Source: a virus. From it: 47,047 nucleotides of DNA. Where the stretch lies: positions 1-47,047 of IMG/VR virus record IMGVR_UViG_3300030388_000730; one strand, 5' to 3'. Positions 17,501 to 43,832 of the stretch are shown here, piece after piece; within the stretch, counting starts at the first letter, position 1, and every line of letters starts with the position of its first letter. The notes beneath the pieces were generated by a model, which ran no database searches, was not told the origin of the DNA, and saw only the letters and a list, made by a program, of their open reading frames with translations. The translations under genes and the position numbers were made by a program.

Positions 17501-20500
17501 ATAGTAGGGGCGATGAAGGTGCTGCTTACGCAATGGGATTAGGGGTGTTTATTAACCCAGACGCTGCGACAGACAGTGCTGAAGAAGCTATATTTCACGA
17601 GAACTTTCACATATTTAGAATGCTTTATGGGCATCTAAAAGAAGTTAAAGATATGATGCTGTCCGTAGTAGGTCAGCCTGTATACAAGACAACTAAACTA
17701 GATTACCAAGAAGAGCTTTTGTACTTCTTTGTAGATAAGGAAGGTAATAAGAATACAATGACTCAAGAAGAAGCTTTAGAATACTTAAAGCTTAAGCAAG
17801 AGAATGCATCTCAACAAGAGTTATTTAATGTTGTAACTTCCGTAGAGAAGTATGCCTTAGATAATGGGAAAGATATTACAGAGAAATTACGTAAAGAGTT
17901 CTATGAGTCTTCTTTAAATGTGCTAACACAAGCAGGATTTGTTGAGTTAAAAGAAGAAGCACAAGTACATATACAAGATGAAGCTTTAGCTAAGTTAGGT
18001 GGTTTGTATGGTTCTGTTAATCAAGATTTATTCATTTCTGGTCAAAACAAGACAGAGTACAATAGCAAGCTAAAAGCTTGGAAAGAAAAAATAAAAGATT
18101 CTGTTACTAAAGAAGAAGCAGAGTCTGCTTTTGAAGCTGTATCTAAAGGCTTGTATAAAGCTAATGGAGAGCAGAGTTTAGAGGAACAGTTTAAGAATGT
18201 TAATAAGTTAATAGCTGATAACAAAGCTAAGTACGGTGCTTACACTGCTACAACTCAACAGTCATTAAATAAGAAACTTCTAAAGCAGTCTAGAGTAATA
18301 GATGAAGTTAATTATTTACTAAATGACTTAAAGGGCTCTGTTCATCAAAGAGCTAAAGCATTTGTAGCTACTGAACTAGATGTGATACTTAAGGTAGATA
18401 AGAAAAAGGACTTTACTGTTAATGAATTATCTAAATATATACAGGAGAAGTTACTACTAACTGAGAGTATAAATAAATCTTATGTAGATATAGCAAGTGA
18501 TGTACTATCTGATTATTATAACACAAAAGACTACAAACAAGCTTTACAGTTAATAAGAAACAATGAGGGTACGATAAAAGCTCTTATTCGTAATCAACAC
18601 CTTACAGGTCTTACAGCTGAAGCTTCTAAGGTTTTATCTAAGAAGTTGTCTGAATCTGATAATGCCTACTTAAAAGCTTTAGAAGCTAAGTTCTCTAAGG
18701 CTCAGAAGGAAGTTCTATCTACGGATAATAATGGTGATAAGTTATCTATTGATGCAGATGATATATTCTCTGCAATGATAGATGATAACCCTCAGCAATT
18801 GTCTGATAAGTTATATTCTATTCTTGAGTTCCATTTACAAATTGTAAGTCAAACTTACAGAAGGGATGTAATCATTGGTAAGGATAAATTATTGTTCCAT
18901 ATAAAAAGTTTTGCCCAAGGAAAGACTAAAGAGGAGTTTGTTAAAAATGCTTATGGTCTTATAGATGCATTAAGGTTACAAGAAGCAGGTAAGAGCTTTA
19001 CCTTCATGGAAAATAACGACGAGCATGTTGCCAGATTCCTTACAACTTTAGTAGAGCAACATGAGTTAATGCCAAAGACTGCAATACCATACACAAAGAA
19101 AGGTGCTAACATGGCATTTGGTTCTGTATTAGGTGGGTTATATCTTCAGATGAACTCTATGACTACAGAGAAAGGTCTCTTTCTTACTGCTGATGGATAC
19201 GCTCCTGCTTTGTCAAGACAAGACGCAAATAGAGTACAGACTGCTCTTAAGGATGCTGTAATGTTTGGTTCTGAGTTTTTAAATAAACAAAGAACAGGTA
19301 ATGTACCATTAGGTTTATTAACTGAGAATGTTAATGCAACACCTACAAATGAAAGACAAGCTGGAATGTTATCTCAGCTTAGAAAAAGAATACTATACAC
19401 TAGGAATTTAGCACGTCTTGTATACGCTCCTAAACACACATATGAAAAAGGGCAACGAGACAAAGACTTACTTCATTTTATAAACGCTTTCTTTTTACCA
19501 TTTGGTACTAACGAGAGTGGAGCTTCTTTTAATTTCAATGAATTAGCTTTAGATGAGTTCCGTATATACGATGAAGAAACAAAAAAGAACCTTACGCTTA
19601 GAGAGTACTTTGAAGGCGACAGGCTTAAAGCTTTATATAACCAATCAATTAGTTTTGATTTAGCCGAGAGCGTTAAAAATAACAATATTTCTCTTGAAGA
19701 CTTAAAGAAAAAAGCTAATGCTGATGTGTTTATGCCGTTCTTTATTGCTAAAATAAGAAACAAGATAGGTGGAGATAAAATACAAGACAATACACTTATA
19801 GATAAAGATATTATGTCTCAGATTAGAGACGACTTTGATAAGCAAATTGAAGACGCTTACAATTCTATGGATAAGTTTCCTGCAGATAAAGTAGATGATG
19901 TTAAATATGTTCAGACACTTCCTGAAGCTGGTTTAACTAATTCCCCTAAAGGACCAGAATATCAAAGGAATGGTAAAGTTACTAGACAGATTAAGCTTAC
20001 AGAATTAAAGACTGAAGAGCAAAAAGAAGCCTATGCTAAGAAAAACGGGCTTATGTCCTTTTCCACTTCTGGAATACAGCCTGGCGAAAAAGTATGGGAG
20101 AGAGAGATAGTAAAAGAGTGGAAGACTTCTGAAAGGGGTTCTATTGCTATGTATACTGTTATAGGTGAAGACGGAGGGAAGAATAATTCTAGTTCTCTTA
20201 ATGATTTACAGGGGCATAAAAAACTAGCACAAGCAGTTATAGCCACATTTAATTCAGAGCATAACGAAGGTTACATGTCTACTATATTGACACCAGAAGA
20301 CAAGACTCTTAATCTTAATACAAGAAAGTACTTCTTAGAATACAATGCAGACTCACTAAGAGACTTTATGAATAAGGGTGACGGAATGGCTTTTGCTGAA
20401 TTATTCTCTTACGAAGGGTATCAAAACCCTTATGCTATGAGGGCTCTTGAGGATGACTATAAGTTAGAGTTCCTTTCTTTACTTGGTGATTCAAAATCTG

Positions 20501-23500
20501 AATTAGATAGACAAAACATATCTAGTGTAGGTATTACTGAAGGAGATATTAATGAAATTAATAGGGCTTTAAAGTCTGGGTCTAAAGAATATAATCAGGT
20601 TGTCCGTGACTACTCTGATAAGTCTAGAAGATACTACGCTAAGGCTACTCTAATTCCTGCAGACAATCAATACAACTTAGAAGGTGGTGTTGCTATATTT
20701 ATAGAGAATGCTGTAAGCAATCGTAATGACTTTACTGAAGAACAATTAAGAGCTATAGATAAGCACTTAGAGTTAATGGTTGATATAACCGCTACTAAAA
20801 GTCAAAAGTTATTAGCTTTAAATAATGTTAAGAGAAAGTATGTAATGGCTGTAACCACAGAGTTGCAAGCCAAGATGGATGAGGTCGTAGATTACCACAA
20901 CGCTAAGACTAGAGAGATTATAGCTAATCATAATAGCAACAGTGACTTTGACTTGTTTAAGGTTACTGGTCAAGCCACTATAGATAGCTTATTATCAGAA
21001 GGTTATAAAATAAAGAACTCTGACACTCAGAAGTCTAAGGTAAAAGGAGAGCTTAACCTATTAGGTAAACTAGCGTTCCAACAAACTATAAATGGTAAGA
21101 TTCAATACTTAAATAATGTAGAGACTCATGTAGCCATGATGGATAAGTTAGGAAGAAGTCCTCTCGATGCCGTATCTTCTATGAATTACTTTACAAACAA
21201 GTTCTGGTTACAAGACCTGAATGCTAACACAATGGAAGAGCAGAATTTTAGTATGAAGAATAAGCGCTCTACGGGTCTTATTGCTCCACACGATTCTTCT
21301 TATTCTGGCAACAGAGTAGAGACCATTATTTTTGATGACCAAGATTTAGAATTTGAAAACGAATCTCAGAAAGTACAAATATTCAATTATGAAACAGGTA
21401 AACTTGAAGAGGTAACACTAACTCCTAAGCTTGCTGATTCAGCCTCATACATAACGCAAGAGGAAGCAACAAGATTAGAGGGTAATCATGGTGGTTTATC
21501 TGATGTTAAGGGCTCATTCAAGCTTGTTGGATACGGTAGAAATGTAGACAACAAAAGGATAGCTTCTCATACAGGGCAGAAATCTAATCAATTCTACTTT
21601 AAAGGTCATACTATTGTATTAAACAATAAGGTTAGAGGACCTCTTAGTGGAGTATATAAGTCGTTAAAAGCTAGAGAGAAGTTCTATTCTGATGAAGGTT
21701 TAAAGAACCATAGAGTTTTATCTTATGCAGATAGTGGTGTTAAGAAGTTTAACATTAAAGGAGTTAATACATTCTCTTTAAAGGAGTTAAATGATGGAAA
21801 CTTTGACCTTAATGGTCGTTTAGATAAGTGGAGTTACGATGAGGTTAACAAACTTAGAGGATTTGATGGTAGATTCTTTGGTGTACAGAATGAGTTAGAT
21901 AAAGAAGCTAATTCAGCAACTGTAGCAAAGCAAGGTATATCTAACATGAATGTATTTGCTGACCACTGGGATACGAACGTACAAGCTCTTTCTCAGAAGG
22001 TTATGAATGCTTACGCACTTGCTTTAGATTTACAATATAACGAAGAGATTGCTAGCCTTACATACGAAGGATTAGCTAAACAAGATATGGAGTCATCATC
22101 TATGCCTCCTGTCCAAGCTGTTATGTTCCAAGAAGGTAACGATTCTTTACCTACTATTAGAGCGAGAGTTCTAGAGTTGGCTAATTCTAAATTAAGAAAA
22201 AAAGGATTTAAATTAAGAACTGAGGGTACTCTATCTTTACAAGAGTCTGATATAATTCAAGGATTTGAAATGTCAGGTGAGGGTAAATTGGTAGAAACAG
22301 ACAAAGCTTTAAAGCCTATTAGTGTAAGCGGTACAGAAGGTAACTTAAAAGTATCGCATGCTGAAGCATCTATATCTCAACACATGGCCAAAATGCTAGG
22401 TGTAACTAAAGAGGATGTAGAAAAAGCTAGAACTAGTGGTGAAGAAATATTATTTCTTGCTACTCGTATACCAGCATCATCTGCAGGTTCTACTGTAGTA
22501 TTGAGAGTTGCTAAAATATCTGACAAGCAAGGTAATACTATTGCTGTTAACTCTAAGACCTCTTCTATTATGGGAGCTGACCTCGATGGGGATATGCTAC
22601 ACATTAATATAGTAGAGACAGGTAAAGATTTAACTGACTTACAGAATGCTAAAAATAACGTTATACAATCTATTATAGATTTATACTCAGAGCCTTCTGT
22701 GGTTAATATGTTAATTCAAGAGATTGAAATTGAATCTACTACAAAATCTAGTAACCTTGCTTTGTTTGGAAATGAAGAAGGAAGTACTGAAGTAAATAAT
22801 GATTTAGGTTTATTAGGTGCAAGTAATATATATGAGACGACTAAGGGTAATGTACCGATGATTGGTATAATTGCATCTCAGAACCTTATGTACAACTATA
22901 TATCTCAAGGTAATCCTGAACTTCTTTATGATGGTACAGCTATAGAGTTTCAAATTGATAAAGGGTTTAGTAAAAGTTCTTTAGGTTTAGATTTTTATTC
23001 TAACAATAAAAAGTTATCAGAAATTGGAACTGCAGAAGAGTATTCAGAATTCTTGGAAACAGTATTCCCTAATAGTGAAGTGAAGGACGTTGTGTATAGA
23101 GGCTCAGACCCATTAGCTTCAAGCTCAACATATCAATATTTTACAACAGTAAAAGGAGAAGCAACTCTTTTTGCTAAAGCTAACGTTCCTAAAAGCGGTA
23201 TAATTTCTGAAAGAAATCCTACCAATTCTATTGATAAAAACTTTAAAGAGGGATTAAAAAATAAGTATGATGAAAGTCTAATAAAAAGTTTATATCATGA
23301 GCCGCTAGCTCCAGATGACTTTTTTAAAGGATTTGTACCAAATGCTATAAACAAACTTAGTCCGTCTGATAAGTCTATTTTTAACAAGATAGAGAAGTTA
23401 AAAAGAATGTATGATATAGTTAAGATAGAATCAGAGAGTGATGCAATGAAGCCATTTGATGATACAGACTATAGAGACACAATAGATGATTATAAAAAAT

Positions 23501-26500
23501 TATTAGCCGAATTAAAATCTTTATACTTTAAATCAAGTGACGTAGGGAAGGTACAGGAAGTATTGCTAAATATTAAAAACTCATACAAAGAAGAGATAGT
23601 ACAAGAAGATTTACAAAACAATAGAGATGCTTATAAAAATGGTCATGACGGGGCTATGCTTAATGATGGCGACCACTTCCTTGTTAAAAGGGATACTAAT
23701 CAAATTCACGAACTAGGCTCAGAAAAAGACATACAAGGATTTAATAATTTTGTAGCATCGAATAAATCTACTTTAACTACACTAGATAACGTAGTTAAAA
23801 AAGATGGTACTGGAACTTACTATGAGGTATGTAAGTACTTAAACTTAGTATTAGATGATGGTAAGAATAATAACAGAGCTAACTTCCAATTCATAAAAGA
23901 AACTGCTGGACAGTTTATAATGATGATGAAGTATGGTATTAAGCCTGCTCAAATATCTACGTATATAAGAGATATGAATTGGGCTGCCCTTAAAGGGTTG
24001 AACTCTAAGGAGATATACGATAGGGCTAATGAGGCTGCAATGAGCTTAGATGCTGAATACAACATAGGAGGTGAAGAGCCTGCAAATTTAAGTCAAGTTA
24101 TACAGTCAGTTTTTGGTGGTGGAGTAGGTCTTTCTTTTAACATACCTTCTATCGCTGAAGAGTCTAAGAATGATGAAAAAGATGTTAATGATAAAGCTAT
24201 GCTTCTTTATTATGTTACTAGTCAGATAGGTCAAGACCTTAAAGATTTAAGTCTATTCGTAGGTTTAGATAAGAAGTTTACTGCAAACCCTCTTGACAAC
24301 TTAATACAACATCAAGCAGCGTTAGAAGCTTTAAAGGTTCAACCAAGTATAGATGAAAGATTAAGAGCAAAGAATCCTTTGTATAAGAGACAGTTAGAAA
24401 CAAACGAAAAGCTTATACAGAAAGCTATAGACGAGTCTGCAGAATTAAGTAATGGTTATGCTGAAGGATTACTTGGGGATTACAATTTCGAAGAAGTTAA
24501 AGGTACTTCAGGAATTTTAGGTATAGAGAATATTCAAAATAGTGCTGGTGAAGATATACCTCTTGGAATATTTAATAAAAACCTAAACGGTCTAGTTAGT
24601 GACTCTGATTTAATAAGTCAACTGACTAAAGCTTTAACGTTATCAAGAGCTCTTATTCATGCTGGTTATGATGTATCTAATAAGATTCTACAACTAGGTG
24701 GTATGTTTAAGGAGGAAATGGGGCTTAAATACGAAGAGTTTGCTGCACTACCAACAAATGCAGGAAAGTTAGTACACCTAACAACTGCTGCTGGTAATGT
24801 AGCTAAAGCATTCCAAAACGATAACTCAAACAATCAGAACAAATGGTTGGGAGCTGACGGTATACTAAAGATTATGCCTACTAAGGGTTATATAACAGAG
24901 AAAGGTAAAACACAAATAGCAGATTATATTAAGTTTGATATAGATGTTGCTAAGCTTCAACGAGAGTTAGAGTTTACTGAGCATGTTGATATATATAGAA
25001 AGGATTTTGAAAAGCTTCCTGAATCCCTTAAGAGGTTCTTAGTATTTAATGACTTGTTATCAACTGGTTGGGGTTCTAAAAACCCTGGAAAGTCTATGAT
25101 ACCTTACATGTCTGCTGCTTATTCTTCTAAAGTGAATAGTATGTTTAGTGTTATAAACGACCCAGCTGTAAGTAACTTCACTGATGACATGGCTATAATG
25201 AAAGAAAAGCTAAGTCATATAATGAACTTCACTGGGGATAATGAACTAGACAACAGAAGAATTGCTTTAGTGCTTCAGATTGGGTTGAATGGCCCTAATG
25301 CTAAAGTGACTACTAATACAAAGACTGGAGAATCAACTATAAGGAATAAGCATAATGGAGGGTTGTTTACTGTAACAACTAATAAGATAGGTGCTAACCC
25401 ACTTAATCAAGTGTCTGAAATTAAATTTGATAAACAAGCAACTTCTGCTTATAGAGATGTAAACCCTTCAGAAACTTTCCCATTCCAATATGGTAAAGGA
25501 ATCCCTTATTTCAATCAGTTTCCTGAGTTATCAATGCTCAACACTATGGAAGCTTTAACTAAAGTTAAGCATGCTGAGAATGGTACTTCTGTACATGAGG
25601 TTAGTAAAGGGCCTAAAAAGAAGTTTTTAAAGATAGCATCTCATAGTAGAGACCATTTCGGAGATACAGGTGTTGCTTACACTAAAAATGAGTATGCAGC
25701 TAAAGTTCTACTTAAAGGTCAAAAAATAGAAGATTTAAGTGAGAACATGCAGGAAGACCTGGATTTAAGGTTTAAAGTTTATGAAGAGTCTGTAAAACGA
25801 GCTGCTGAAATAAATAAAGAAATTAGTAAGGAATTAGACGATACCATATACAGACTAGACCATAATAATAAAGAAAAGAGCAAGAAAGCTTTAGATAAAA
25901 AGTTTGAAGATGTTAGAGATATATACACTAACCTTAGAGATGTAATAGATAAAAGTACTGTAGTTATAGGTAAAGAGTCTTACAAGTTAGATTCTATGGC
26001 TTTTGATACATTACTTCGTTTAGCTCAACATAACTTTGGTAATCATATAGCTGAAAAACAAATCACTGATTGGGAGTATGCACACGGTAAGAAATTTGTA
26101 GAAACGGTTATCAATGAACAACACAAAAAATCTAAAGATATTTCTAGATTAAATCTATGGATGTCTCCAGGTGATTTTGGTAAAACTAAGCCAGCGATAG
26201 CTTATATAAACAAGAACATCAAAATGACTCATATGAAGTATACAAGAAACATATCTCTTGTTGCTAAAGAAATGAACGATAAATTGGATTCCTTATTCAA
26301 GCACAAGTTTGGTAGCGATTTAGCTGCTAAAGGAATTAAGGCTTTTATGGCTTACATGCCTATAGGTACAATGGGTTATAGTGAAAAGTTGTTTGAGAAT
26401 TTCTACAAGTCTTACACTGGTCTTGAAAAGATAACAGATAAGGAAGGTGTAGTATCTTACAGAGATAGGTCTAATTTAGAGTTGCACCCAGATTTATTTA

Positions 26501-28689
26501 ACAAAGGTGGTAAGTATGGTAATACTATATCTTTAAAGAAAGAAGGTAAAAAATACAAAAATTTACACGAGTCTGAGAAAGAGTATATAGAAATGTATGT
26601 TAAGTATACAAACTTCTACAAAGAATTAATAAAAGCTAAAAACTTATATAAGACGACTAAAGGAGCTAACTATGTTGCTAACATAAACTCTAGTACCTGG
26701 GAAACTTACCATAGAAGAGGTTTGTTCGGTATGTACTACCAAATGTTTAAGGGTGATGAAATGCTTTCTGATGTAATGATTAAAGGTGTTAACCCTATAA
26801 CGGGTGAACCAGCAACTTTAGATTACTTTAGTTGGAAGGCTATCTTTATGCATGCTCCAGGAGAGTCGTTTAAAATATCAAGAGCTCAGATAGTTAAAGG
26901 TGGGGTAAAGATGATTTCTTCTAAAGGTAATAGCAAACAAGTTATGACTGGAACTCAAAGAGTTGAAGCATATAGAGTTATACAAAAAAGAGCTCAAGAG
27001 TTATGGGACAACAAGAAAGACGACAACGATAACGATATAAACGTAACATCACCAGTTAATGACGTTATGGCTTTAGAATCTGAAGAAGCTGTTAACAGGT
27101 ATGTACACTCACGTTCTATGACTTCTGGTTACTTAGCCACTCATAATATACACCAGGCTTTAAACACTTATGTAAGAGACTTTATGTTCTTGCATGGTAA
27201 TATGTTCTATGACCCTAAAGCTAAAGTTTGGAATACTCTTTCGTGGGCTGGAAACGATAAAGCTTTAGAGCACTCTTATATAAGCGACAAAAAAGTTACT
27301 GATTCTAGATATTCTGGATTAAAGCATATAAGGTCAAACGAAGGAGATGCAAGTCTTAAGGATTACAAGCTGGCTTTTTCAGGATTTAATGATAAGACTG
27401 CTGAGATAGATGCAGCTATGTCAAGTCTTGGAGATAATCATATAAACGCTAGAAAGTTTCTACAGAAAGTAGTTAAAGAAGGATTCCTTATTAAAGAAAA
27501 AAATCTTACTTTGAGTGACTCTTCATCTAAAATTACGAGGTATACATTTGGACAACAACCAGAAAAAGTTCTAGCTAACTTCTTCACTCAATGGACTATG
27601 TATATTGCATTAGGATTTAATATTCCTGCTGCAAAAGGTAACGTGTTGATTGGTAAATACAATGCTTATAGACAAGCTGGTGGTAAAGCCTTAATAAAAG
27701 GTGAAGCTAGATATTGGGGATTAAGTAGCGATAAGATTTACGACAACTCTGCTAGGCTTAAAGCTCGTAAGATGATTGACGAACTAGGTATACTTACATA
27801 TCGTGCAGAGGAATTAGCCGAAGGTTTAGGTGCAAGTTCTTTAAGTTCTGTTGTCTTCTACCCTATGGTAGCTGCAGAGAATTGGATACAACAAGCACAA
27901 TTTTTAGGTCAATTAACTCAAAAGCAATGGGATGGTTATTTTATAGACAAGAACGGAGACCTTAAATTTAATGGAGCAGAAGAAGATAGACTAACTCAAC
28001 AGGATGTAGCTACCTTAGAAAGAAAAGTAATTGATGTACAAGGTAGAGGGTATTCCGAAACTGATGTACGTTACATACAACTATTCTCTCTTGGTACTAT
28101 GGCCATGCAGTTTAAAAGATGGTTTCCAACTTTCTTAGCTGACAGGTTTAAGTCTGAAGATGTGGATGACTTAGGTAATTTACGTATGGGCTCAATAATA
28201 GGAGCTAGGAAGTTTATAGATAAAATGCATAAGGAAGGTAAGCTGTGGAAATTTAGTGAGTTTAGAAAAGAACTTAATGAGAACTTTAAACCGCACGAAC
28301 GTGAAGCTGTAATGAGAGTAATGTATGGAACTAACGGTATTATGGTTGCTTCTTTACTATACGCTATAGCTATTGCTACTAATGATGATGACGAGCCAGA
28401 AGATGAAACTGCTAAGTTGTTTGAGAAACTTTTAGGAGATATGCTTTTATTAGGTAACGTTCCAAAGCTTACGTATATGACTAACATACCTGCAACAGAC
28501 ACGATAGAAAATTTAGCTCTTGCACTTTATCATACAGCAAAACAAACTGAATACCAACGTAAAGCTAAGTATGGAGATAAAGGAGACTTAAAATCTGTAG
28601 CACACTTTGCAAGGTTATTACCAGCTCCTCTTAGAAAACCTTTACAGTTAGAAAATAAAAAAGACAAAAGACAAAGACCTTTAAACTAA
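14584..28689 (+). CDS. Giant multidomain virion protein with RNA polymerase-like, peptidase-like and ADP-ribosyltransferase-like segments
   Basis: This 4701-aa open frame has no interruption. Visible in order: hydrophobic Ala/Gly segments at about 180-203 and 236-262; a Lys/Glu linker (773-819); an E3-binding-like domain (826-866, SPSALALANKLGIDLEESG then GRLTKADIENY); a second Lys/Glu linker; HENFH at 1005-1009 in EEAIFHENFHIF. Then come segments found in two-barrel RNA polymerases of phages: DSASYIT (2285-2291), YFKGHTIVL (2338-2346), FFGVQNEL (2431-2438), R2628-x-P2630, and GAD2666-L-D2668-G-D2670. An ADP-ribosyltransferase-like segment follows (FPNSEVKDVVYRGS at 2828-2841; HELGSEKDIQGFNNF near 3045). 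The C-terminal 900 residues include FSLGTMAMQFKRWFPTFLADRF-type sequence split over about 4500-4520, and one hydrophobic stretch at 4585-4599. It ends the internal-virion gene run, so injection with DNA is likely. Catalysis is inferred from motifs only. Confidence 0.8.
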   Translation: MEEKKLAPTIQPSNDFWNIDEPKEGVQQYDSSLDSSFNEPSSSEGLNVPQDDVPVYRRNLNLENEAIQDATTAWRQPEQPKVEIDEDMNWFEMAGKSFVVGLGDMVDSFGDIADFMGGSTSSEISQQVYGTDTSKPISDSLHGFADYLQSYGDDVPGLADLENVTWDDLSDIDFWGTGVARMLPFALSLMIPATGAAKLAGMATKGRKFTKAAAAIAKGSKSIGITKYADPLVARGLITAGISTVSAGATANLIEGAALAGQTLNEGVKQGLTEAEAMNAASLVYRDNLASMGADIVQYGLFMGQMGIGKGAIASAQKLGAKFAGTSTAKAVAGVAGKAAAKSGVSALKAPGMKDVIRSSFKAIGMGAIHGITDGVVEQFQEVFQDWSVQRRIAEAKGEGDEFPDYLDFFLADEQRPTRVLSFATSLLMSGASNTIRTATENRTTLQTAIDERNESHEMIKIFEKDLDEGVYRTKRKVNVTNEDGTISQKEVIEELNAEEASNWGRDAAAHTMILNAVKQGDEQVILDFFQSKLDSGNISEEQHSSYKGTFDEIKAAMDGKPSSTLDNKGKTELVYNSWLNSTSKVQLNKQKEALQAQIDEIQAQVDDGPLDQPSADIEINGLKELTKSSLQAQEEIVAATESRINEIYSESKVRTDEKTWKKDTGKKLESIVEKELKGEDLTAEELALTTSDDKAKEFYSEKKLEGQKFNALKAAKKKAGRKFKGHKANAASSKDGTYVYTKRNEKDNTLSVITVSPDGSVEMKTDTIDENLSEIEKKSKEKSEAKTEKEKALRAEKEKAKDEKDEKEEKEKNLTEKNSQFKGKVISPSALALANKLGIDLEESGLIGNGKGKNGRLTKADIENYKPEVKAEEKAEKKVEEKGKETIPKYLTGSNLKATAKLALDATTGIIKAFFNKERAVRIVDKVEAALHRRKIRRAYTMGKGSQRTLANLYAKKSADGLISVQFLDEIYSRGDEGAAYAMGLGVFINPDAATDSAEEAIFHENFHIFRMLYGHLKEVKDMMLSVVGQPVYKTTKLDYQEELLYFFVDKEGNKNTMTQEEALEYLKLKQENASQQELFNVVTSVEKYALDNGKDITEKLRKEFYESSLNVLTQAGFVELKEEAQVHIQDEALAKLGGLYGSVNQDLFISGQNKTEYNSKLKAWKEKIKDSVTKEEAESAFEAVSKGLYKANGEQSLEEQFKNVNKLIADNKAKYGAYTATTQQSLNKKLLKQSRVIDEVNYLLNDLKGSVHQRAKAFVATELDVILKVDKKKDFTVNELSKYIQEKLLLTESINKSYVDIASDVLSDYYNTKDYKQALQLIRNNEGTIKALIRNQHLTGLTAEASKVLSKKLSESDNAYLKALEAKFSKAQKEVLSTDNNGDKLSIDADDIFSAMIDDNPQQLSDKLYSILEFHLQIVSQTYRRDVIIGKDKLLFHIKSFAQGKTKEEFVKNAYGLIDALRLQEAGKSFTFMENNDEHVARFLTTLVEQHELMPKTAIPYTKKGANMAFGSVLGGLYLQMNSMTTEKGLFLTADGYAPALSRQDANRVQTALKDAVMFGSEFLNKQRTGNVPLGLLTENVNATPTNERQAGMLSQLRKRILYTRNLARLVYAPKHTYEKGQRDKDLLHFINAFFLPFGTNESGASFNFNELALDEFRIYDEETKKNLTLREYFEGDRLKALYNQSISFDLAESVKNNNISLEDLKKKANADVFMPFFIAKIRNKIGGDKIQDNTLIDKDIMSQIRDDFDKQIEDAYNSMDKFPADKVDDVKYVQTLPEAGLTNSPKGPEYQRNGKVTRQIKLTELKTEEQKEAYAKKNGLMSFSTSGIQPGEKVWEREIVKEWKTSERGSIAMYTVIGEDGGKNNSSSLNDLQGHKKLAQAVIATFNSEHNEGYMSTILTPEDKTLNLNTRKYFLEYNADSLRDFMNKGDGMAFAELFSYEGYQNPYAMRALEDDYKLEFLSLLGDSKSELDRQNISSVGITEGDINEINRALKSGSKEYNQVVRDYSDKSRRYYAKATLIPADNQYNLEGGVAIFIENAVSNRNDFTEEQLRAIDKHLELMVDITATKSQKLLALNNVKRKYVMAVTTELQAKMDEVVDYHNAKTREIIANHNSNSDFDLFKVTGQATIDSLLSEGYKIKNSDTQKSKVKGELNLLGKLAFQQTINGKIQYLNNVETHVAMMDKLGRSPLDAVSSMNYFTNKFWLQDLNANTMEEQNFSMKNKRSTGLIAPHDSSYSGNRVETIIFDDQDLEFENESQKVQIFNYETGKLEEVTLTPKLADSASYITQEEATRLEGNHGGLSDVKGSFKLVGYGRNVDNKRIASHTGQKSNQFYFKGHTIVLNNKVRGPLSGVYKSLKAREKFYSDEGLKNHRVLSYADSGVKKFNIKGVNTFSLKELNDGNFDLNGRLDKWSYDEVNKLRGFDGRFFGVQNELDKEANSATVAKQGISNMNVFADHWDTNVQALSQKVMNAYALALDLQYNEEIASLTYEGLAKQDMESSSMPPVQAVMFQEGNDSLPTIRARVLELANSKLRKKGFKLRTEGTLSLQESDIIQGFEMSGEGKLVETDKALKPISVSGTEGNLKVSHAEASISQHMAKMLGVTKEDVEKARTSGEEILFLATRIPASSAGSTVVLRVAKISDKQGNTIAVNSKTSSIMGADLDGDMLHINIVETGKDLTDLQNAKNNVIQSIIDLYSEPSVVNMLIQEIEIESTTKSSNLALFGNEEGSTEVNNDLGLLGASNIYETTKGNVPMIGIIASQNLMYNYISQGNPELLYDGTAIEFQIDKGFSKSSLGLDFYSNNKKLSEIGTAEEYSEFLETVFPNSEVKDVVYRGSDPLASSSTYQYFTTVKGEATLFAKANVPKSGIISERNPTNSIDKNFKEGLKNKYDESLIKSLYHEPLAPDDFFKGFVPNAINKLSPSDKSIFNKIEKLKRMYDIVKIESESDAMKPFDDTDYRDTIDDYKKLLAELKSLYFKSSDVGKVQEVLLNIKNSYKEEIVQEDLQNNRDAYKNGHDGAMLNDGDHFLVKRDTNQIHELGSEKDIQGFNNFVASNKSTLTTLDNVVKKDGTGTYYEVCKYLNLVLDDGKNNNRANFQFIKETAGQFIMMMKYGIKPAQISTYIRDMNWAALKGLNSKEIYDRANEAAMSLDAEYNIGGEEPANLSQVIQSVFGGGVGLSFNIPSIAEESKNDEKDVNDKAMLLYYVTSQIGQDLKDLSLFVGLDKKFTANPLDNLIQHQAALEALKVQPSIDERLRAKNPLYKRQLETNEKLIQKAIDESAELSNGYAEGLLGDYNFEEVKGTSGILGIENIQNSAGEDIPLGIFNKNLNGLVSDSDLISQLTKALTLSRALIHAGYDVSNKILQLGGMFKEEMGLKYEEFAALPTNAGKLVHLTTAAGNVAKAFQNDNSNNQNKWLGADGILKIMPTKGYITEKGKTQIADYIKFDIDVAKLQRELEFTEHVDIYRKDFEKLPESLKRFLVFNDLLSTGWGSKNPGKSMIPYMSAAYSSKVNSMFSVINDPAVSNFTDDMAIMKEKLSHIMNFTGDNELDNRRIALVLQIGLNGPNAKVTTNTKTGESTIRNKHNGGLFTVTTNKIGANPLNQVSEIKFDKQATSAYRDVNPSETFPFQYGKGIPYFNQFPELSMLNTMEALTKVKHAENGTSVHEVSKGPKKKFLKIASHSRDHFGDTGVAYTKNEYAAKVLLKGQKIEDLSENMQEDLDLRFKVYEESVKRAAEINKEISKELDDTIYRLDHNNKEKSKKALDKKFEDVRDIYTNLRDVIDKSTVVIGKESYKLDSMAFDTLLRLAQHNFGNHIAEKQITDWEYAHGKKFVETVINEQHKKSKDISRLNLWMSPGDFGKTKPAIAYINKNIKMTHMKYTRNISLVAKEMNDKLDSLFKHKFGSDLAAKGIKAFMAYMPIGTMGYSEKLFENFYKSYTGLEKITDKEGVVSYRDRSNLELHPDLFNKGGKYGNTISLKKEGKKYKNLHESEKEYIEMYVKYTNFYKELIKAKNLYKTTKGANYVANINSSTWETYHRRGLFGMYYQMFKGDEMLSDVMIKGVNPITGEPATLDYFSWKAIFMHAPGESFKISRAQIVKGGVKMISSKGNSKQVMTGTQRVEAYRVIQKRAQELWDNKKDDNDNDINVTSPVNDVMALESEEAVNRYVHSRSMTSGYLATHNIHQALNTYVRDFMFLHGNMFYDPKAKVWNTLSWAGNDKALEHSYISDKKVTDSRYSGLKHIRSNEGDASLKDYKLAFSGFNDKTAEIDAAMSSLGDNHINARKFLQKVVKEGFLIKEKNLTLSDSSSKITRYTFGQQPEKVLANFFTQWTMYIALGFNIPAAKGNVLIGKYNAYRQAGGKALIKGEARYWGLSSDKIYDNSARLKARKMIDELGILTYRAEELAEGLGASSLSSVVFYPMVAAENWIQQAQFLGQLTQKQWDGYFIDKNGDLKFNGAEEDRLTQQDVATLERKVIDVQGRGYSETDVRYIQLFSLGTMAMQFKRWFPTFLADRFKSEDVDDLGNLRMGSIIGARKFIDKMHKEGKLWKFSEFRKELNENFKPHEREAVMRVMYGTNGIMVASLLYAIAIATNDDDEPEDETAKLFEKLLGDMLLLGNVPKLTYMTNIPATDTIENLALALYHTAKQTEYQRKAKYGDKGDLKSVAHFARLLPAPLRKPLQLENKKDKRQRPLN

Positions 28690-34104: not shown

Positions 34105-34929
34105 ATGCCAGACTTTACAGTATTAGAAATATCCGACGTAGAAGGTCAAAAAGCTTTATACCCTGCAGTTTTTTCAGCCCCAAACGTAGTATCTTCATAC
34201 GAAAGTATAGATATAGTTTTCCCTAATACTCTAGGTAGTTCGGGAGAGGTTGATATTTCAGATTCAAATTATTTTGAAATACATACTAGGGTTTCTCCAG
34301 CTAGTTGGTCTATGTTCTGTTTAACTATAGATGTAGATGGAGATTATGATGATTCTAGTGGTTCTTTTGTTAATAGTAAAAACTTAAGTGTTTTAGGAGC
34401 TCAACAAAATCCTTCAGATAATATTATTATAGTAAAAGACAACCTTGGTAATTCTTATTTACCAGCATTTAATTTTAATGGAATTGGTAATTTTACTAAT
34501 AATAAAGCTTATTTTATGAAATTAACAAATGCTCAATCTTTTAGCTTTAAAGGAAATCCTTTAAGTGAAGCTGATTCTAATGGAAATAGAGCTTACGGCA
34601 GTATTATTCCATTAAAAACTGGGTATAATTTAATAGGAAATCCATTACCTAATGTTGATGGACTAACAGGAGAAGAGTTTCAACACCCTACTTGGCCAAT
34701 GATATTTAATGGAGTTACTAACTCTGATTTTAATAATGTCAACTTTCTTAACATTGAACAAGGTTTAAATGGTACATTAATTATTGTAAAGGATTTTCAA
34801 GGTAATGTTTATTTACCAAAATGGGGGTTTGATGGTATAGGGGTTTTAGTCGCTGGTCAAGGGTATCAATTAAAGATAGAGTATACAGGGTCTCAAACTA
34901 ATTCTGGAAGTATAGAAATAACAATGTAA
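34105..34929 (+). CDS. Tail protein carrying two host-surface-protein-like repeats
   Basis: This 274-aa protein has two copies of one motif: IIIVKDNLGNSYLPAFNFNG at about 107-126 continuing with IGNF and AYFMKL, and LIIVKDFQGNVYLPKWGFDG at about 225-244 continuing with IGVL and GYQLKI. Before the second copy lies GYNLIGNPLPNV. This 'GWNLIG...IVKD..GN.YLP...F.GIG......GYQ.K' pattern occurs in many secreted surface proteins of marine Flavobacteriia. The phage copy has no signal peptide and sits among fibre genes, so it is probably a virion part that was borrowed from, or mimics, host cell-surface proteins. The N-terminal 90 residues are another beta domain (SWSMFCLTIDVDGDYDD). Confidence 0.55.
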   Translation: MPDFTVLEISDVEGQKALYPAVFSAPNVVSSYESIDIVFPNTLGSSGEVDISDSNYFEIHTRVSPASWSMFCLTIDVDGDYDDSSGSFVNSKNLSVLGAQQNPSDNIIIVKDNLGNSYLPAFNFNGIGNFTNNKAYFMKLTNAQSFSFKGNPLSEADSNGNRAYGSIIPLKTGYNLIGNPLPNVDGLTGEEFQHPTWPMIFNGVTNSDFNNVNFLNIEQGLNGTLIIVKDFQGNVYLPKWGFDGIGVLVAGQGYQLKIEYTGSQTNSGSIEITM

Positions 34930-38559: not shown

Positions 38560-39306
38560 ATGGCATTAGCAAGTAAAAAGTCAAACCCTATACACGACAA
38601 AGATGGGTCAGATAAAGTTAAACTTAAAGATGAGTTTGATGCTGGTCACATTGGTAAAATTGCAACTGCCCCTGATGAAGAGCCTGCGATTGCAGGAGTT
38701 ATATATCAAATAGGTTTAGTACAAGAAGATGTAGATGAACTAAGAAGACATGTAGTTTCTGATGTTGTAGGCTCACGAGGCCCTAAAGGAGATGATGGTG
38801 ATGCAGGCTCAGATGGTTCTAACGGTAACAATGGTAGCACAGGCTCTAGAGGGCCTACAGGTAACACAGGTGCAAGAGGAGCTGCTGGAGCTGCTGGAGC
38901 TGATGGTGGTGTATATGGAAACACAATTAAGATACTACCTACACAGTTTATGGGTAACGATGATGCTAGTTTAGAGCGTACCGTTATTGAGGATGATATA
39001 AGAAATAAGATAGGAGTTAGAGTGGTTAGCTCTGCACAAGAAATATTTGCATCTGTTGCTATACCAGAAGGTAAGAAAGTAACAGGGTATGCTGTATATT
39101 CTAGTAGTACTGTGGTAACTTTTTTAAATGGTGTAATTGCAACTACAGGAGTATTATCTGTAATAGGTAATGGAAACTCTGGTGCTGTTATAAATTTAAG
39201 AACAGCTTATAATTCAGCAGCAACTAACTATGTAGCTATAAAGGTTATAACAACAACAACATCACAAGTAATATACGGAGCAATAATAAATATAGCAGAC
39301 ATATAG
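38560..39306 (+). CDS. Collagen-like tail protein
   Basis: This 248-aa protein has a charged N-terminal region (DKDGSDKVKLKDEFDAGHIG) and a helical segment (VQEDVDELRRHVVSDV). Fifteen uninterrupted Gly-X-Y triplets follow at residues 71-115, and then a 130-aa C-terminal beta domain. Collagen-like stretches in phage fibres form a trimeric rod, with the helical segment before it able to start trimer formation. It lies two bases after the main fibre gene and is followed after one base by a third adaptor copy. The C-terminal domain may be the binding tip; this is inferred. Confidence 0.62.
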   Translation: MALASKKSNPIHDKDGSDKVKLKDEFDAGHIGKIATAPDEEPAIAGVIYQIGLVQEDVDELRRHVVSDVVGSRGPKGDDGDAGSDGSNGNNGSTGSRGPTGNTGARGAAGAAGADGGVYGNTIKILPTQFMGNDDASLERTVIEDDIRNKIGVRVVSSAQEIFASVAIPEGKKVTGYAVYSSSTVVTFLNGVIATTGVLSVIGNGNSGAVINLRTAYNSAATNYVAIKVITTTTSQVIYGAIINIADI

Positions 39307-40483: not shown

Positions 40484-40782
40484 TGCCTAGAAAAAAAGAC
40501 ACACCAATACGAAAAACTACTAAAGGTAAAGGAGCTAATTACAGACCTACTAAAAGTGGTGCTGGAATGACAGCTAAAGGTGTTAAGGCTTATAAGAAAG
40601 CTAATCCTGGTAGTAAACTTAAGACTGCCGTTACAGGCACAGTTAAGAAAGGTAGTAAGGCTGCGGGTAGAAGGAAGTCATATTGTGCTAGGTCTGCTGG
40701 TCAGTTAAAGAACAGTAGTGCTAAGACAAAGAATGACCCTGATTCAAGAATAAGACAAGCTAGAAGAAGATGGAAATGTTAA
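40483..40782 (+). CDS. Basic DUF6321-like phage protein
   Basis: This 99-aa, very basic protein ends with a motif typical of a small phage family: GRRKSYCARSAGQLKNSS followed by DPDSRIRQARRRWKC. The Cys pair in SYCAR and RWKC is the hallmark. Family members occur widely in marine phages, usually with unknown or proposed DNA-binding function. The N-terminus is Lys/Thr/Gly-rich and likely disordered. It overlaps the start of the exported protein at 40770 by 13 bases. Confidence 0.7.
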   Translation: MPRKKDTPIRKTTKGKGANYRPTKSGAGMTAKGVKAYKKANPGSKLKTAVTGTVKKGSKAAGRRKSYCARSAGQLKNSSAKTKNDPDSRIRQARRRWKC

Positions 40783-41819
40783 AGCAACTACTATATTTAA
40801 TATTATTTTGTCCGTTAATAGCTAACGCACAATTATTAAAGTTTGCTACGTTCTATGCAAGTTTTTCAACAGGAGCTCCGTTTTCAGAAAACCAATCATT
40901 TATCGTTGATGGTGTAGCTGGTTCAGGACAGTTAGTAGAAATTACTAACGTAAGCAAACCAAATTACAATGTAAGCATTGGTCTTAGAAAGATAGCACGT
41001 TTTAATTACCAAGTAAAACAAGGTAATTTTTACACGGGCTCAGAGAATGAAATAAGTGATTACGCTACAATATCTAACGCTCCTGGCTTAGAGTATTTAT
41101 TTGAATATTCCTCTATACGAAATAGAGGTATGACGTTTCGTCAACATGAATATAAACTTAGGTACATATCAAACAACTATACAGCAAGAGCATCGTATAT
41201 AGATGATGGATTAATTGACCTTAAATACACTCTGAGCGAGGTTAGGCTACGCAAAAGTTTTGGTAATCTCGACCTTACTTTAGGCGTAGCCCATCGTTCT
41301 CACCCTGTATATGGTTACTCTCCAATTACAGAATGGTTTGCTGACCCTTTAAACAAACACTGGTGGCAATTAGCTCAGGAGTTTGGTGTTTTTAGTACAA
41401 CAGGAGGTAGTGAAGATTGGATGCAGATAGATACAGAGGCAGGTACTGCAGAGTGGATTGCTGAGTCAGATAGAGAGTTCTATATGTATTATTTTGGTGA
41501 CCTAGTTAATAGATACAACAAAGAACAACTCGACCTTTTAGGGTTACAACAAGAAGTTTCTGCAGTTGTAGGAGCTGATTATTATCTCTATACAACACAG
41601 TCATGGATACACGCTTGGGTTTCCTTATACCCTATACACAAAGGGCTGAGTGATTATTCATATTCTTATCCTAACAAACAGACTGAATGGGATTTAGGTT
41701 TTGTGGCAGGCTCAAAAGTTAACAGACATTTTAGTATATTTGTAGAAGGAAGACATCTCAAGTACTGGGATATACTTTCTTACGAAATGAAAGTTGGATT
41801 AAATTATATAATATTCTAA
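40770..41819 (+). CDS. Predicted outer-membrane beta-barrel protein
   Basis: This 349-aa protein has an N-terminal signal peptide (MLKQLLYLILFCPLIANAQ, cleavage after NA) typical of Bacteroidota. Long runs of alternating amphipathic beta strands follow (NVSIGLRKIARFNYQVKQG; HEYKLRYISNNYTARASYID; YTLSEVRLRKSFGNLDLTLG). The C-terminus ends in Phe in KVGLNYIIF, the classic outer-membrane barrel signal. The start could be the ATG at 40770 or 40776; the second gives a cleaner signal peptide. An export-competent barrel does not belong in a virion. Its place directly before membrane and lysis genes suggests a role in the host envelope, such as lysis support or blocking superinfection. No known family was recognised. 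Confidence 0.6.
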   Translation: MEMLKQLLYLILFCPLIANAQLLKFATFYASFSTGAPFSENQSFIVDGVAGSGQLVEITNVSKPNYNVSIGLRKIARFNYQVKQGNFYTGSENEISDYATISNAPGLEYLFEYSSIRNRGMTFRQHEYKLRYISNNYTARASYIDDGLIDLKYTLSEVRLRKSFGNLDLTLGVAHRSHPVYGYSPITEWFADPLNKHWWQLAQEFGVFSTTGGSEDWMQIDTEAGTAEWIAESDREFYMYYFGDLVNRYNKEQLDLLGLQQEVSAVVGADYYLYTTQSWIHAWVSLYPIHKGLSDYSYSYPNKQTEWDLGFVAGSKVNRHFSIFVEGRHLKYWDILSYEMKVGLNYIIF

Positions 41820-41822
41820 ACG

Positions 41823-42101
41823 ATGGCTAAAGAATTAAGTGAAGATACTTCAATACAATTAAGTTTAAAAACATTAGGCGGTATAGCTTGTGGAATTGCA
41901 ACTCTAGTAGGTATGTGGTTTGTATTACAAAACGATATAGCAGAGGCTAGAAACTTACCCTTACCTATAGACCCTGTTATTACTCGTATGGAGTTTGATA
42001 TGAAGGACAAGCTAGTCCGTCAAACGATAATGAATACACAAGACGATGTATCTGAGATTAAAGAAGACATGAAACTTATTAAGCAAAAACTTTATGAATA
42101 A
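41823..42101 (+). CDS. Small membrane protein with coiled-coil tail
   Basis: This 92-aa protein has one membrane segment at about 18-36 (LGGIACGIATLVGMWFVLQ) and a C-terminal coiled-coil (about 65-92, DDVSEIKEDMKLIKQKLYE). The topology recalls inner-membrane spanin subunits or holin-like regulators, but without a spanin partner lipoprotein the name cannot be assigned. It overlaps the following secreted thioredoxin-like gene by 8 bases, so the two are probably made together. It lies between two exported proteins and upstream of the endolysin-holin genes. Confidence 0.5.
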   Translation: MAKELSEDTSIQLSLKTLGGIACGIATLVGMWFVLQNDIAEARNLPLPIDPVITRMEFDMKDKLVRQTIMNTQDDVSEIKEDMKLIKQKLYE

Positions 42102-42462
42102 GTTTATATGTTTATTACTGATTACTACAAATATTGTAGCTCAAGAGTTCATCACTTCTAGCTCATTTGATTCTAAAACAGCTAAAGGAATAGTGGTAAT
42201 TGAATTCTACGCTGCATGGAACGATGGTAATAAAGTTGATTTTCTACCTTCATTAAAAGATTGCAATAGTTATAAGCTATCTATTGTTAACAACTCTTTA
42301 ATACAACAACGTTTTAACGTTACTTCTATACCTACCTTGATTGTCTTGAACAACGGTATTGAAGAAAAGAGATTTAACCCTAACATAATGATGCAGTTAA
42401 AGACTACCCAAAAGGAAGTCCAGTCATTTATAGATGATATAATATTTAACAAATTTCAATAA
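42094..42462 (+). CDS. Secreted thioredoxin-fold protein lacking the CxxC motif
   Basis: This 122-aa protein has a signal peptide (MNKFICLLLITTNIVAQ). It then has a thioredoxin-like core: strand VVIEFYAAWNDG at 34-45 where the redox CxxC would be, and the cis-proline loop VTSIPTLIVLNNG at 76-88 with Pro80. The CxxC cysteines are absent; the position after FYAAW reads NDGN. It therefore cannot act as a standard disulfide reductase, but could bind peptides or serve as a chaperone-like or structural protein in the periplasm. It overlaps both neighbours and belongs to the exported cassette. Confidence 0.6.
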   Translation: MNKFICLLLITTNIVAQEFITSSSFDSKTAKGIVVIEFYAAWNDGNKVDFLPSLKDCNSYKLSIVNNSLIQQRFNVTSIPTLIVLNNGIEEKRFNPNIMMQLKTTQKEVQSFIDDIIFNKFQ

Positions 42463-43010
42463 TGAATAAAGAGAAACTTGAAGAATATGGGTGGATAGTA
42501 TTAGTTACAGCTTTACTATTTTTTGTAATAATGTTTGCATCAAAAACAGCTAATGCTCAACAGCAAACAGTGTTTGTAGAGTGTACAACAGGAGAATACC
42601 CTGCTGAAATTACTTGGCAGATACTTACCTGCAATGGTGGCATACTACTAGAAGGTATATCTCCTTACTTAGGTGCTGTTGTTTTGCCAGAGTATTACCA
42701 GATAAGTATGATAGATTCATACGGTGATGGATGGAATGGTGCTTATCTTTATATAGACGAAACAGAGTATGGATTTTTATCTGATGTAGATTGGATAGAC
42801 TCTCTTGGTACTTGGCCTCAAGAGTTTAAAGAACAGCTTGTAGATGTAGGTTGTCTTACAATAGGAATTAAAGAGTTAGGTGATTCAAAATTTATTCCAA
42901 CACATTATTATGATGTATTGGGTAGAGAAGTAAAACCCGTTAGAGGTTTCTATATAGCAAGCGACGGCATACTAACTAGAAAGATTTACATAGATGAGAT
43001 TAAGCGATAA
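42462..43010 (+). CDS. Exported protein with a T9SS-like C-terminal region
   Basis: This 182-aa protein has a hydrophobic N-terminus with a signal-peptide-like cleavage after NA (WIVLVTALLFFVIMFASKTA then NAQQQ). A small extracellular domain contains the motif DSYGDGWNGAYLYI. The C-terminal region is THYYDVLGREVKPVRGFYIA then LTRKIYIDE. The pattern 'Y(D/N)xLGREV...G.YI....KI' resembles the type IX secretion C-terminal sorting domain of Bacteroidota, here in short form. If functional, the protein would cross the outer membrane through the host T9SS. The last 17 bases overlap the endolysin gene. The short tail could instead be a relic of a longer host-like protein. Confidence 0.55.
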   Translation: MNKEKLEEYGWIVLVTALLFFVIMFASKTANAQQQTVFVECTTGEYPAEITWQILTCNGGILLEGISPYLGAVVLPEYYQISMIDSYGDGWNGAYLYIDETEYGFLSDVDWIDSLGTWPQEFKEQLVDVGCLTIGIKELGDSKFIPTHYYDVLGREVKPVRGFYIASDGILTRKIYIDEIKR

Positions 43011-43449
43011 TTTTGTACTGTCTGAGATAACTCGAAGCAATACAGCTAAACGATTAGGTATAGACAATGGCCCGAATAAAGAACATTTACAAAATATTCA
43101 AAGGATTATTACTAATCTTATACAGCCTATGCGTGACGCTATTGGTCCTATTAGGATTAGCAGTGGTTACAGGAATCCAAATGTCAATCGGGCTATCGGT
43201 GGAAGTACTAAAAGCCAGCATTGTAAAGGTGAAGCTTTGGATTTGCAATTTTGGAACGATGGCCAAATATCTAACAAAGAAATTTATGACTGGGTACTTA
43301 GAAGCAATGTTGAGTTTGACCAAATGATTAATGAGTTTGACTTTGCCTGGATACATATCTCTTTAATTAAAGAAGGTAATAGAAAGCAGGTGTTGGAGGC
43401 TTATAAAGACGAAGACAACGATACTAAATATAAATGGGCAGACCTGTAA
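42994..43449 (+). CDS. Peptidase M15-family endolysin
   Basis: This 151-aa protein belongs to the M15 group of zinc peptidases, which cut peptidoglycan stem peptides. It has RISSGYRNPNVNRAIGG, then S74-Q-H76-C-K-G79-E-A81-L-D83 (the SxHxxGxAxD zinc motif), and the second metal site W119-I-H121-I-S123. All key residues are present, so it is probably active. No signal peptide is visible, so release needs the holin that follows. It starts inside the previous gene and its stop shares a TAATG with the holin gene. This is the clearest enzyme in the lysis block. Confidence 0.85.
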   Translation: MRLSDNFVLSEITRSNTAKRLGIDNGPNKEHLQNIQRIITNLIQPMRDAIGPIRISSGYRNPNVNRAIGGSTKSQHCKGEALDLQFWNDGQISNKEIYDWVLRSNVEFDQMINEFDFAWIHISLIKEGNRKQVLEAYKDEDNDTKYKWADL

Positions 43450-43832
43450 TGAGTAAACTACTAAACATATTAGGGGGAAACATTATATCTAGTGTAGGTA
43501 ACATAGTAGATAACCTTACAACCTCTGGTGAGGAAAGATTAGCCGCTAAGAAAGCTATAAAAGAAGTTCTTATGAAAGCCGAAGCACAGGCTCAACAAGA
43601 AGTCACAAAGCGATGGGAAGCTGACATGAAGTCTGACAACTGGCTTAGTAAGAATATACGACCACTGATATGCATATTTTTAACTGCAATATTTGTGGTT
43701 GTTTCTATTTTTGACGGAAACGCTGGTAGTTTTGTTATATCACCATCTTATATACCTATTTATCAAACACTTCTTATTACTGTATATGGTGCATACTTCG
43801 CTGGAAGAACCATAGAAAAGATAAAGAAATAA
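43449..43832 (+). CDS. Three-TM holin
   Basis: The start at the ATG at 43449, within TAATG, gives a 127-aa protein; an upstream in-frame ATG at 43434 would add five residues inside the endolysin gene. The N-terminal half is helical and charged. A motif typical of the 'holin of 3TMs' family follows (DNWLSKNIRPLICIFLTAIF), then hydrophobic helices and the C-terminal phrase YGAYFAGRTIEKIKK. The protein would form lesions in the inner membrane that release the M15 endolysin. The arrangement of endolysin then holin, with overlap, supports this. Confidence 0.78.
   Translation: MSKLLNILGGNIISSVGNIVDNLTTSGEERLAAKKAIKEVLMKAEAQAQQEVTKRWEADMKSDNWLSKNIRPLICIFLTAIFVVVSIFDGNAGSFVISPSYIPIYQTLLITVYGAYFAGRTIEKIKK

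Follow-up and report, generated by a model that had tools for sequence, protein, structure and literature searches.

The window analyzed here is a 47,047-nt stretch of viral DNA contained in a 54,917-base IMG/VR record. Its MCP, encoded at 19–1410, matches phrog_11589 (8e-28) and shows ~27% identity over 68% to crAss-like MCPs, with E values reaching ~1e-18 to 1e-20. Because of this capsid similarity the phage is classed as crAss-like and, judged by sequence, it is a marine relative of the gut crAss-like phages. A 4701-aa ORF at 14584–28689, occupying 30% of the window, probably encodes a giant virion protein, ejected or internal, of the crAss-like type and has no near DNA match in INPHARED; another gene, in the tail-fibre region, has a collagen-like GXX repeat stretch at 38560–39306.

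A sequence-only reading had drawn attention to the ORF at 42462–43010 as a candidate cargo of the host type IX secretion system (T9SS). This ORF, hereafter the cargo gene, is real and reads exactly as described. The gene, the parts of its product, and its neighbors are as follows.

40770–41819, + strand: module gene 1, encoding an exported, probable outer-membrane beta-barrel of 349 aa with a signal peptide and a C-terminal aromatic residue (by inspection)
41823–42101, + strand: module gene 2, 92 aa, with one N-terminal TM helix and a predicted periplasmic coiled coil (from sequence)
42094–42462, + strand: module gene 3, an exported thioredoxin fold (TRX) with CxxC replaced by NxxN, redox-dead (PF00085, 1.5e-5)
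42462–43010, + strand: cargo gene, 182 aa, with an export signal, a DSYGDGWNG domain, and a short T9SS-like tail (ORF read)
42462–42557, + strand: N-terminal hydrophobic export signal of the cargo, residues 1–32, with predicted cleavage at A32^Q33 (inspection, Q-rule)
42567–42860, + strand: core beta-domain, residues 36–133 (98 aa; cellular-only profile, AF2 model)
42714–42740, + strand: DSYGDGWNG motif, residues 85–93, a possible Ca2+ loop (alignment)
42891–43007, + strand: short T9SS-like sorting tail, residues 144–182 (39 aa; tail profiles, dN/dS, AF2)
42994–43449, + strand: endolysin, an M15 peptidase, its start overlapping the end of the cargo gene (PF08291, 1.6e-17; phrog_894)
43434–43832, + strand: holin (phrog_3427, 3.7e-27)

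The C-terminal residues quoted in the sequence-only reading are found at positions 149–165 and 171–179 (LTRKIYIDE) of the protein, and the DSYGDGWNG motif is where it was said to be. Successive scans for relatives of the cargo yielded 12, then 26, then 29 viral loci. In IMG/VR, ~28 relatives share 59–91% identity with the window copy; divergent forms go lower, and the more divergent ones sit downstream of the same barrel gene. The signal peptide was assessed by inspection: the N-terminus is hydrophobic and ends in ANA^QQQ, but the n-region of the window copy is acidic (MNKEKLEEYGW). Conventional signal peptides are seen, again by inspection, at the same place in the relatives L030, L031, L260, and L266–L274, and the A/G^Q cleavage junction is kept in all relatives read, though their N-terminal signals vary. 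This junction agrees with the Q-rule described for Bacteroidetes signal peptidase (PMC5837995) and points to a Bacteroidota host. As judged by inspection, the protein carries the Sec signal peptide of a type A cargo.

The core domain (residues 36–133) belongs to a family that is repeated many-fold in surface proteins of marine Flavobacteriales, Saprospiraceae, Marinimicrobia, and SAR92-type bacteria. A profile built from 313 cellular domain copies only matches the window cargo at 2.8e-25, residues D85, G88, and W91 are invariant in 102 alignment rows, and no Pfam model matches the domain. An AF2 model computed with 102 rows, including the cellular domains, has a mean pLDDT of 79.7 and superseded a run with 11 close relatives (pLDDT 41). 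A Foldseek search of the model against the PDB returned nothing at E <= 0.001, and with VIA-align the core was found to be weakly similar to Ca-dependent CBM60 and CBM36-type folds, with Z scores of 5.4 and 4.7 that fall in a range possibly meaning a common arrangement only. Calcium-dependent carbohydrate-binding modules are the nearest solved folds, with weak scores; since the similarity is weak, Ca2+-dependent sugar binding by the core is a guess. From the model, the core looks like a small binding domain. Matrix digestion, one of the uses suggested for the protein, is not supported, the 98-aa core matching no enzyme family and containing no catalytic domain.

Cellular proteins with the same core end either in a canonical type A C-terminal domain (CTD) or in a short tail, for example LVKITDVLGKEVNGNEKDVMLLYIYDDGSIERIFIKK. 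Such short tails close unrelated proteins in small, streamlined marine Flavobacteriales genomes (G013–G026; e.g., in L058 and L069). Profile searches at E <= 0.001 detected 11–41 of them per genome in all 12 genomes searched from one Flavobacteriales family, and up to 43 per genome at a looser cut-off; 62 of the 66 cellular profile matches end no more than 5 aa from the stop. SprA was found in 7/7 genomes tested, and canonical CTDs occur there too. Three cellular protein families show a swap: at one and the same junction, the short tail of one genome gives way in another to a canonical type A CTD. In a 2450-aa family, L058, L060, and other members share 44–57% identity with L050 as far as the junction; in the second family, L202 and L102 are 64% identical over 211 aa; in the third, L155 and L090 are 36–39% identical to L186. 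Of the sequence evidence, these swaps argue most strongly that the short tail may stand in for a CTD.

The central claim of the sequence-only reading was that the C-terminus resembles a type IX sorting domain, with a search by T9SS profiles as its check and the absence of any match as the outcome that should count against it. That outcome is what was obtained: TIGR04183, TIGR04131, PF18962, and other curated T9SS models have no match in the window protein or its close relatives. It is not decisive, however, because the curated profiles miss the whole short-tail class, the cellular members included, for which NCBIfam contains no model. A search with TIGR04183 over 13 viral records gave a single sub-threshold match of 12.2 bits, in a different ORF (a 2740-aa frame), which was discounted.

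With a profile built from 52 cellular short tails and no phage sequences, the window tail scores 13.6 bits, a value reached by none of 5000 shuffles of this tail (best shuffle, 10.4). Of 1399 ORFs (window plus 26 viral loci), the 23 best-scoring all have C-termini of the cargo family. The best phage score with this profile is that of L039 (E 2.3e-5), and the window copy alone is weak (E 0.042). Comparison of the phage-tail and cellular-tail profiles by hhalign gave an E value of 1.4e-7 and a probability of 94, and the phage-tail profile, run against 246 Flavobacteriales genomes, gave five matches, all C-terminal, the best being TQYYDVMGRKVSNPSKGLYIEVQ. Thus, the resemblance is beyond chance, but not to a full type IX domain. 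On sequence grounds, the window tail can be assigned to the short C-terminal tail class of marine Flavobacteriales defined here. Full CTDs align with the short tail around the YDxxG[RK]xV motif only, and most of the seven-strand fold is missing from it; at 39 aa, it does not amount to a seven-strand Ig-like CTD. In the AF2 model the tail has three strands of at least 3 residues plus a two-residue bridge and is predicted to be folded, with pLDDT 84–92 over residues 141–180. Values of dN/dS are 0.09 for the tail, 0.10 for the core, and 0.47 for the linker, so that the tail is as constrained as the core. In L261, where the core has diverged (31% as aligned) and the DSYGDGWNG motif is absent, the tail is kept.

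The barrel, TM/coiled-coil, and thioredoxin genes precede the cargo gene in essentially every relative whose contig extends that far. The barrel gene itself was found at 51 viral loci; it has no Pfam, NCBIfam, or PDB match, and the Pfam and NCBIfam models, those for PorP/SprF included, match neither the window barrel nor the divergent ones, the barrels diverging fast. The barrel and coiled-coil genes nearly always lie side by side, also in phages whose endolysin and holin genes are located elsewhere, and their products are a possible trans-envelope pair, spanin-like or acting as a shuttle or anchor. In the window and in the viral homologs read, both catalytic cysteines of the thioredoxin fold are changed to asparagine (WNxGN/WNxxN for WCxxC); by its sequence, this redox-dead protein beside the cargo is possibly chaperone-like. 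The cargo gene is absent from some module-bearing phages (L258, L259, L267, L273, L277, and L278), and is therefore not essential to the module.

Other phages carry different proteins in the slot held by the window cargo. Viral contigs were scanned with a DNA pattern modeled on the canonical cellular tail, which identified L282, L284, and L285. In these, a cargo of ~740 aa repeats the core domain several times, ends in a canonical short tail (E to 3.6e-15), and is neighbored by homologs of the TM (59–63%), thioredoxin (33–36%), and barrel (31–37%) proteins. Two further pattern matches, L286 and L288, lie within radical-SAM-like ORFs and are due to chance. A search for the barrel over 395 genomes identified L291, a T4-like phage contig with a helicase 54% identical to that of Flavobacterium phage immuto. 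Its 994-aa cargo, flanked by homologs of the barrel, TM, and thioredoxin proteins, ends in a curated type A CTD (TIGR04183, 4e-14, 52.3 bits against a cut-off of 23), and its C-terminus also matches PF18962 over the cut-off (3.2e-13). The L291 and L285 cargos share 50% identity over 353 aa, up to the tail junction. Interchangeability with the canonical type A CTD is thus seen in the three cellular families and in this phage pair, and, to go by the sequences, three kinds of C-terminus occur in one module slot: the curated CTD of L291, the canonical short tail of L282, L284, and L285, and the divergent short tail seen in the window. INPHARED contains nothing that matches the cargo of the window or of L291, the L291 barrel, or the TM gene of the window.

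Taken together, the cargo gene quite probably encodes a small, late phage cargo for the host T9SS that is either displayed at the cell surface or set free. This is the best supported reading, through the tail swaps and the curated CTD of L291, although a curated profile match is absent for the window protein itself. Three other explanations were weighed against it. A periplasmic protein of the lysis module, which would stay in the periplasm to aid the endolysin and holin or act in a spanin-like manner, with the tail as a protein–protein interaction motif, would suit most close relatives, where the cargo gene overlaps the M15 endolysin gene and precedes the holin gene, and the neighboring 92-aa TM/coiled-coil gene has a weak spanin-like match (phrog_7686, E 0.049). 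Linkage to endolysin and holin otherwise varies, however, and in L260, L262, L266, and L268–L272 it is lost with the barrel, TM, thioredoxin, and cargo genes still together; moreover, there are matches to host secretion tags in the tail and to host secreted proteins in the core, and the same slot in L291 is occupied by a curated T9SS CTD, all of which renders this explanation improbable.

Still less likely is a virion-associated decoration or adhesin, that is, a host-derived domain and tail carried on the particle rather than secreted. The gene does lie in the late region, and at least one structural-region gene (34105–34929) shares a domain with host secreted proteins, but in the relatives read the export signal obeys the A/G^Q rule, none of the other phage ORFs examined at these loci has the tail, and the gene travels with three envelope genes and not with fixed tail genes. 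The resemblance of both core and tail to host cargo proteins could also reflect capture of a host gene fragment, with the tail left as a functionless relic; the strong purifying selection acting on both parts (dN/dS ~0.09) largely refutes this, and with conservation over dozens of contigs and the retention of the tail beside the diverged core of L261, such an origin is hardly credible.

As a T9SS cargo, the protein would be made late, as the observed arrangement of a tight gene run with overlapping frames ending in endolysin and holin suggests. The Sec pathway would export it, and signal peptidase would cut before the conserved glutamine. The 39-residue tail, as a short type A version, would then direct the folded protein through the outer membrane, a passage that we infer from tail homology, tail swapping, and the synteny of the module. 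The 98-residue DSYGDGWNG domain would be placed outside the cell, either displayed or released, and this domain family may, on weak indications, bind Ca2+ and glycans. As the linkage to its three neighbors is constant, the cargo would be expected to work with the barrel, the inner-membrane coiled-coil protein, and the redox-dead thioredoxin fold. The surface of the dying cell could thereby be masked or altered, such that progeny or competing phages fail to adsorb to the cell or its debris; this is the most likely use, but it is speculative and falls short of being probable. Superinfection exclusion, also suggested by the sequence-only reading, is possible, and a lasting effect on a living lysogen is made less likely by the late position of the gene. 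A broader and rather doubtful proposal is that of a horizontally shared phage surface-display cassette, comprising its own barrel (as shuttle or anchor), a coiled-coil protein, a redox-dead thioredoxin chaperone, and a T9SS-tagged cargo, which would remodel the Bacteroidota exterior late in infection by crAss-like and T4-like phages.

Among known systems, type A cargo (TIGR04183/PF18962, PorV-dependent) is similar in its export signal, the YDxxG[RK]xV tail motif, and the terminal K-rich strand; the phages are of Bacteroidota, and the same phage module has a true TIGR04183 domain in L291. In contrast, the window tail has ~39 aa rather than ~72–100, is without the YPNP start and most strands, and has no curated match. 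Whether a CTD is compatible with a given T9SS can differ from species to species (PMC11285876). Phage T5 Llp is an early lipoprotein that masks the host surface and reaches the outer membrane by lipoprotein sorting. Llp and other surface-masking lipoproteins share with the cargo, as proposed here, the presence of a phage protein on the host surface during infection; the early synthesis and lipoprotein sorting of Llp set it apart, and the window cargo has no known receptor. Type B T9SS cargo with PorP/SprF shuttles (PMC12618676) likewise has a cargo gene linked to the gene for a ~350-aa outer-membrane barrel, but the phage barrel is without detectable PorP/SprF similarity and the tail is not of type B.

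Phage use of the T9SS was fairly called unusual, but phage-encoded proteins with T9SS signals have already been proposed to hijack host secretion in Cryophage (Bellas et al., 2020; PMC7468147). The Cryophage cargos also carry T9SS sorting signals, but are an endoglucanase, a GH39 protein, and a PA14 protein; their type A domains are of the standard kind, and their genes lie in variable islands. The window cargo, by contrast, has a small non-enzymatic domain, a short tail, and a place in a conserved envelope module of crAss-like and T4-like phages. A crAss-BACON ORF with a T9SS domain has been mentioned (PMC6949934), uncultured phage proteins in UniProt are named for the sorting domain, and the mention of T9SS in the FLiP-2 paper is unrelated. 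Neither the short-tail class nor the four-gene module turned up in the literature searched, and both appear to be new. The data support a wider phage use of host type IX secretion than the single published case, extending to crAss-like and T4-like marine phages, and the cassette is a concrete candidate for a late-infection role in masking, exclusion, or release. Because curated models miss the short-tail class, secretome sizes for these abundant marine bacteria, the Flavobacteriales, are probably underestimated.

Two further observations concern phage genes outside the module. The structural-region gene at 34105–34929 contains a repeated domain of the GWNLIGYP/FNGIG type common to large host T9SS cargo proteins (phmmer E to 1.7e-18), a similarity that, from the sequences, would represent domain exchange between phage and host surface proteins. 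On two phage-classed contigs, exported proteins of ~376–399 aa with canonical short tails are encoded at L287:1862–2989 and L283:6879–8075, the former gene lying directly after that of a T4-type major head protein (phrog_138).
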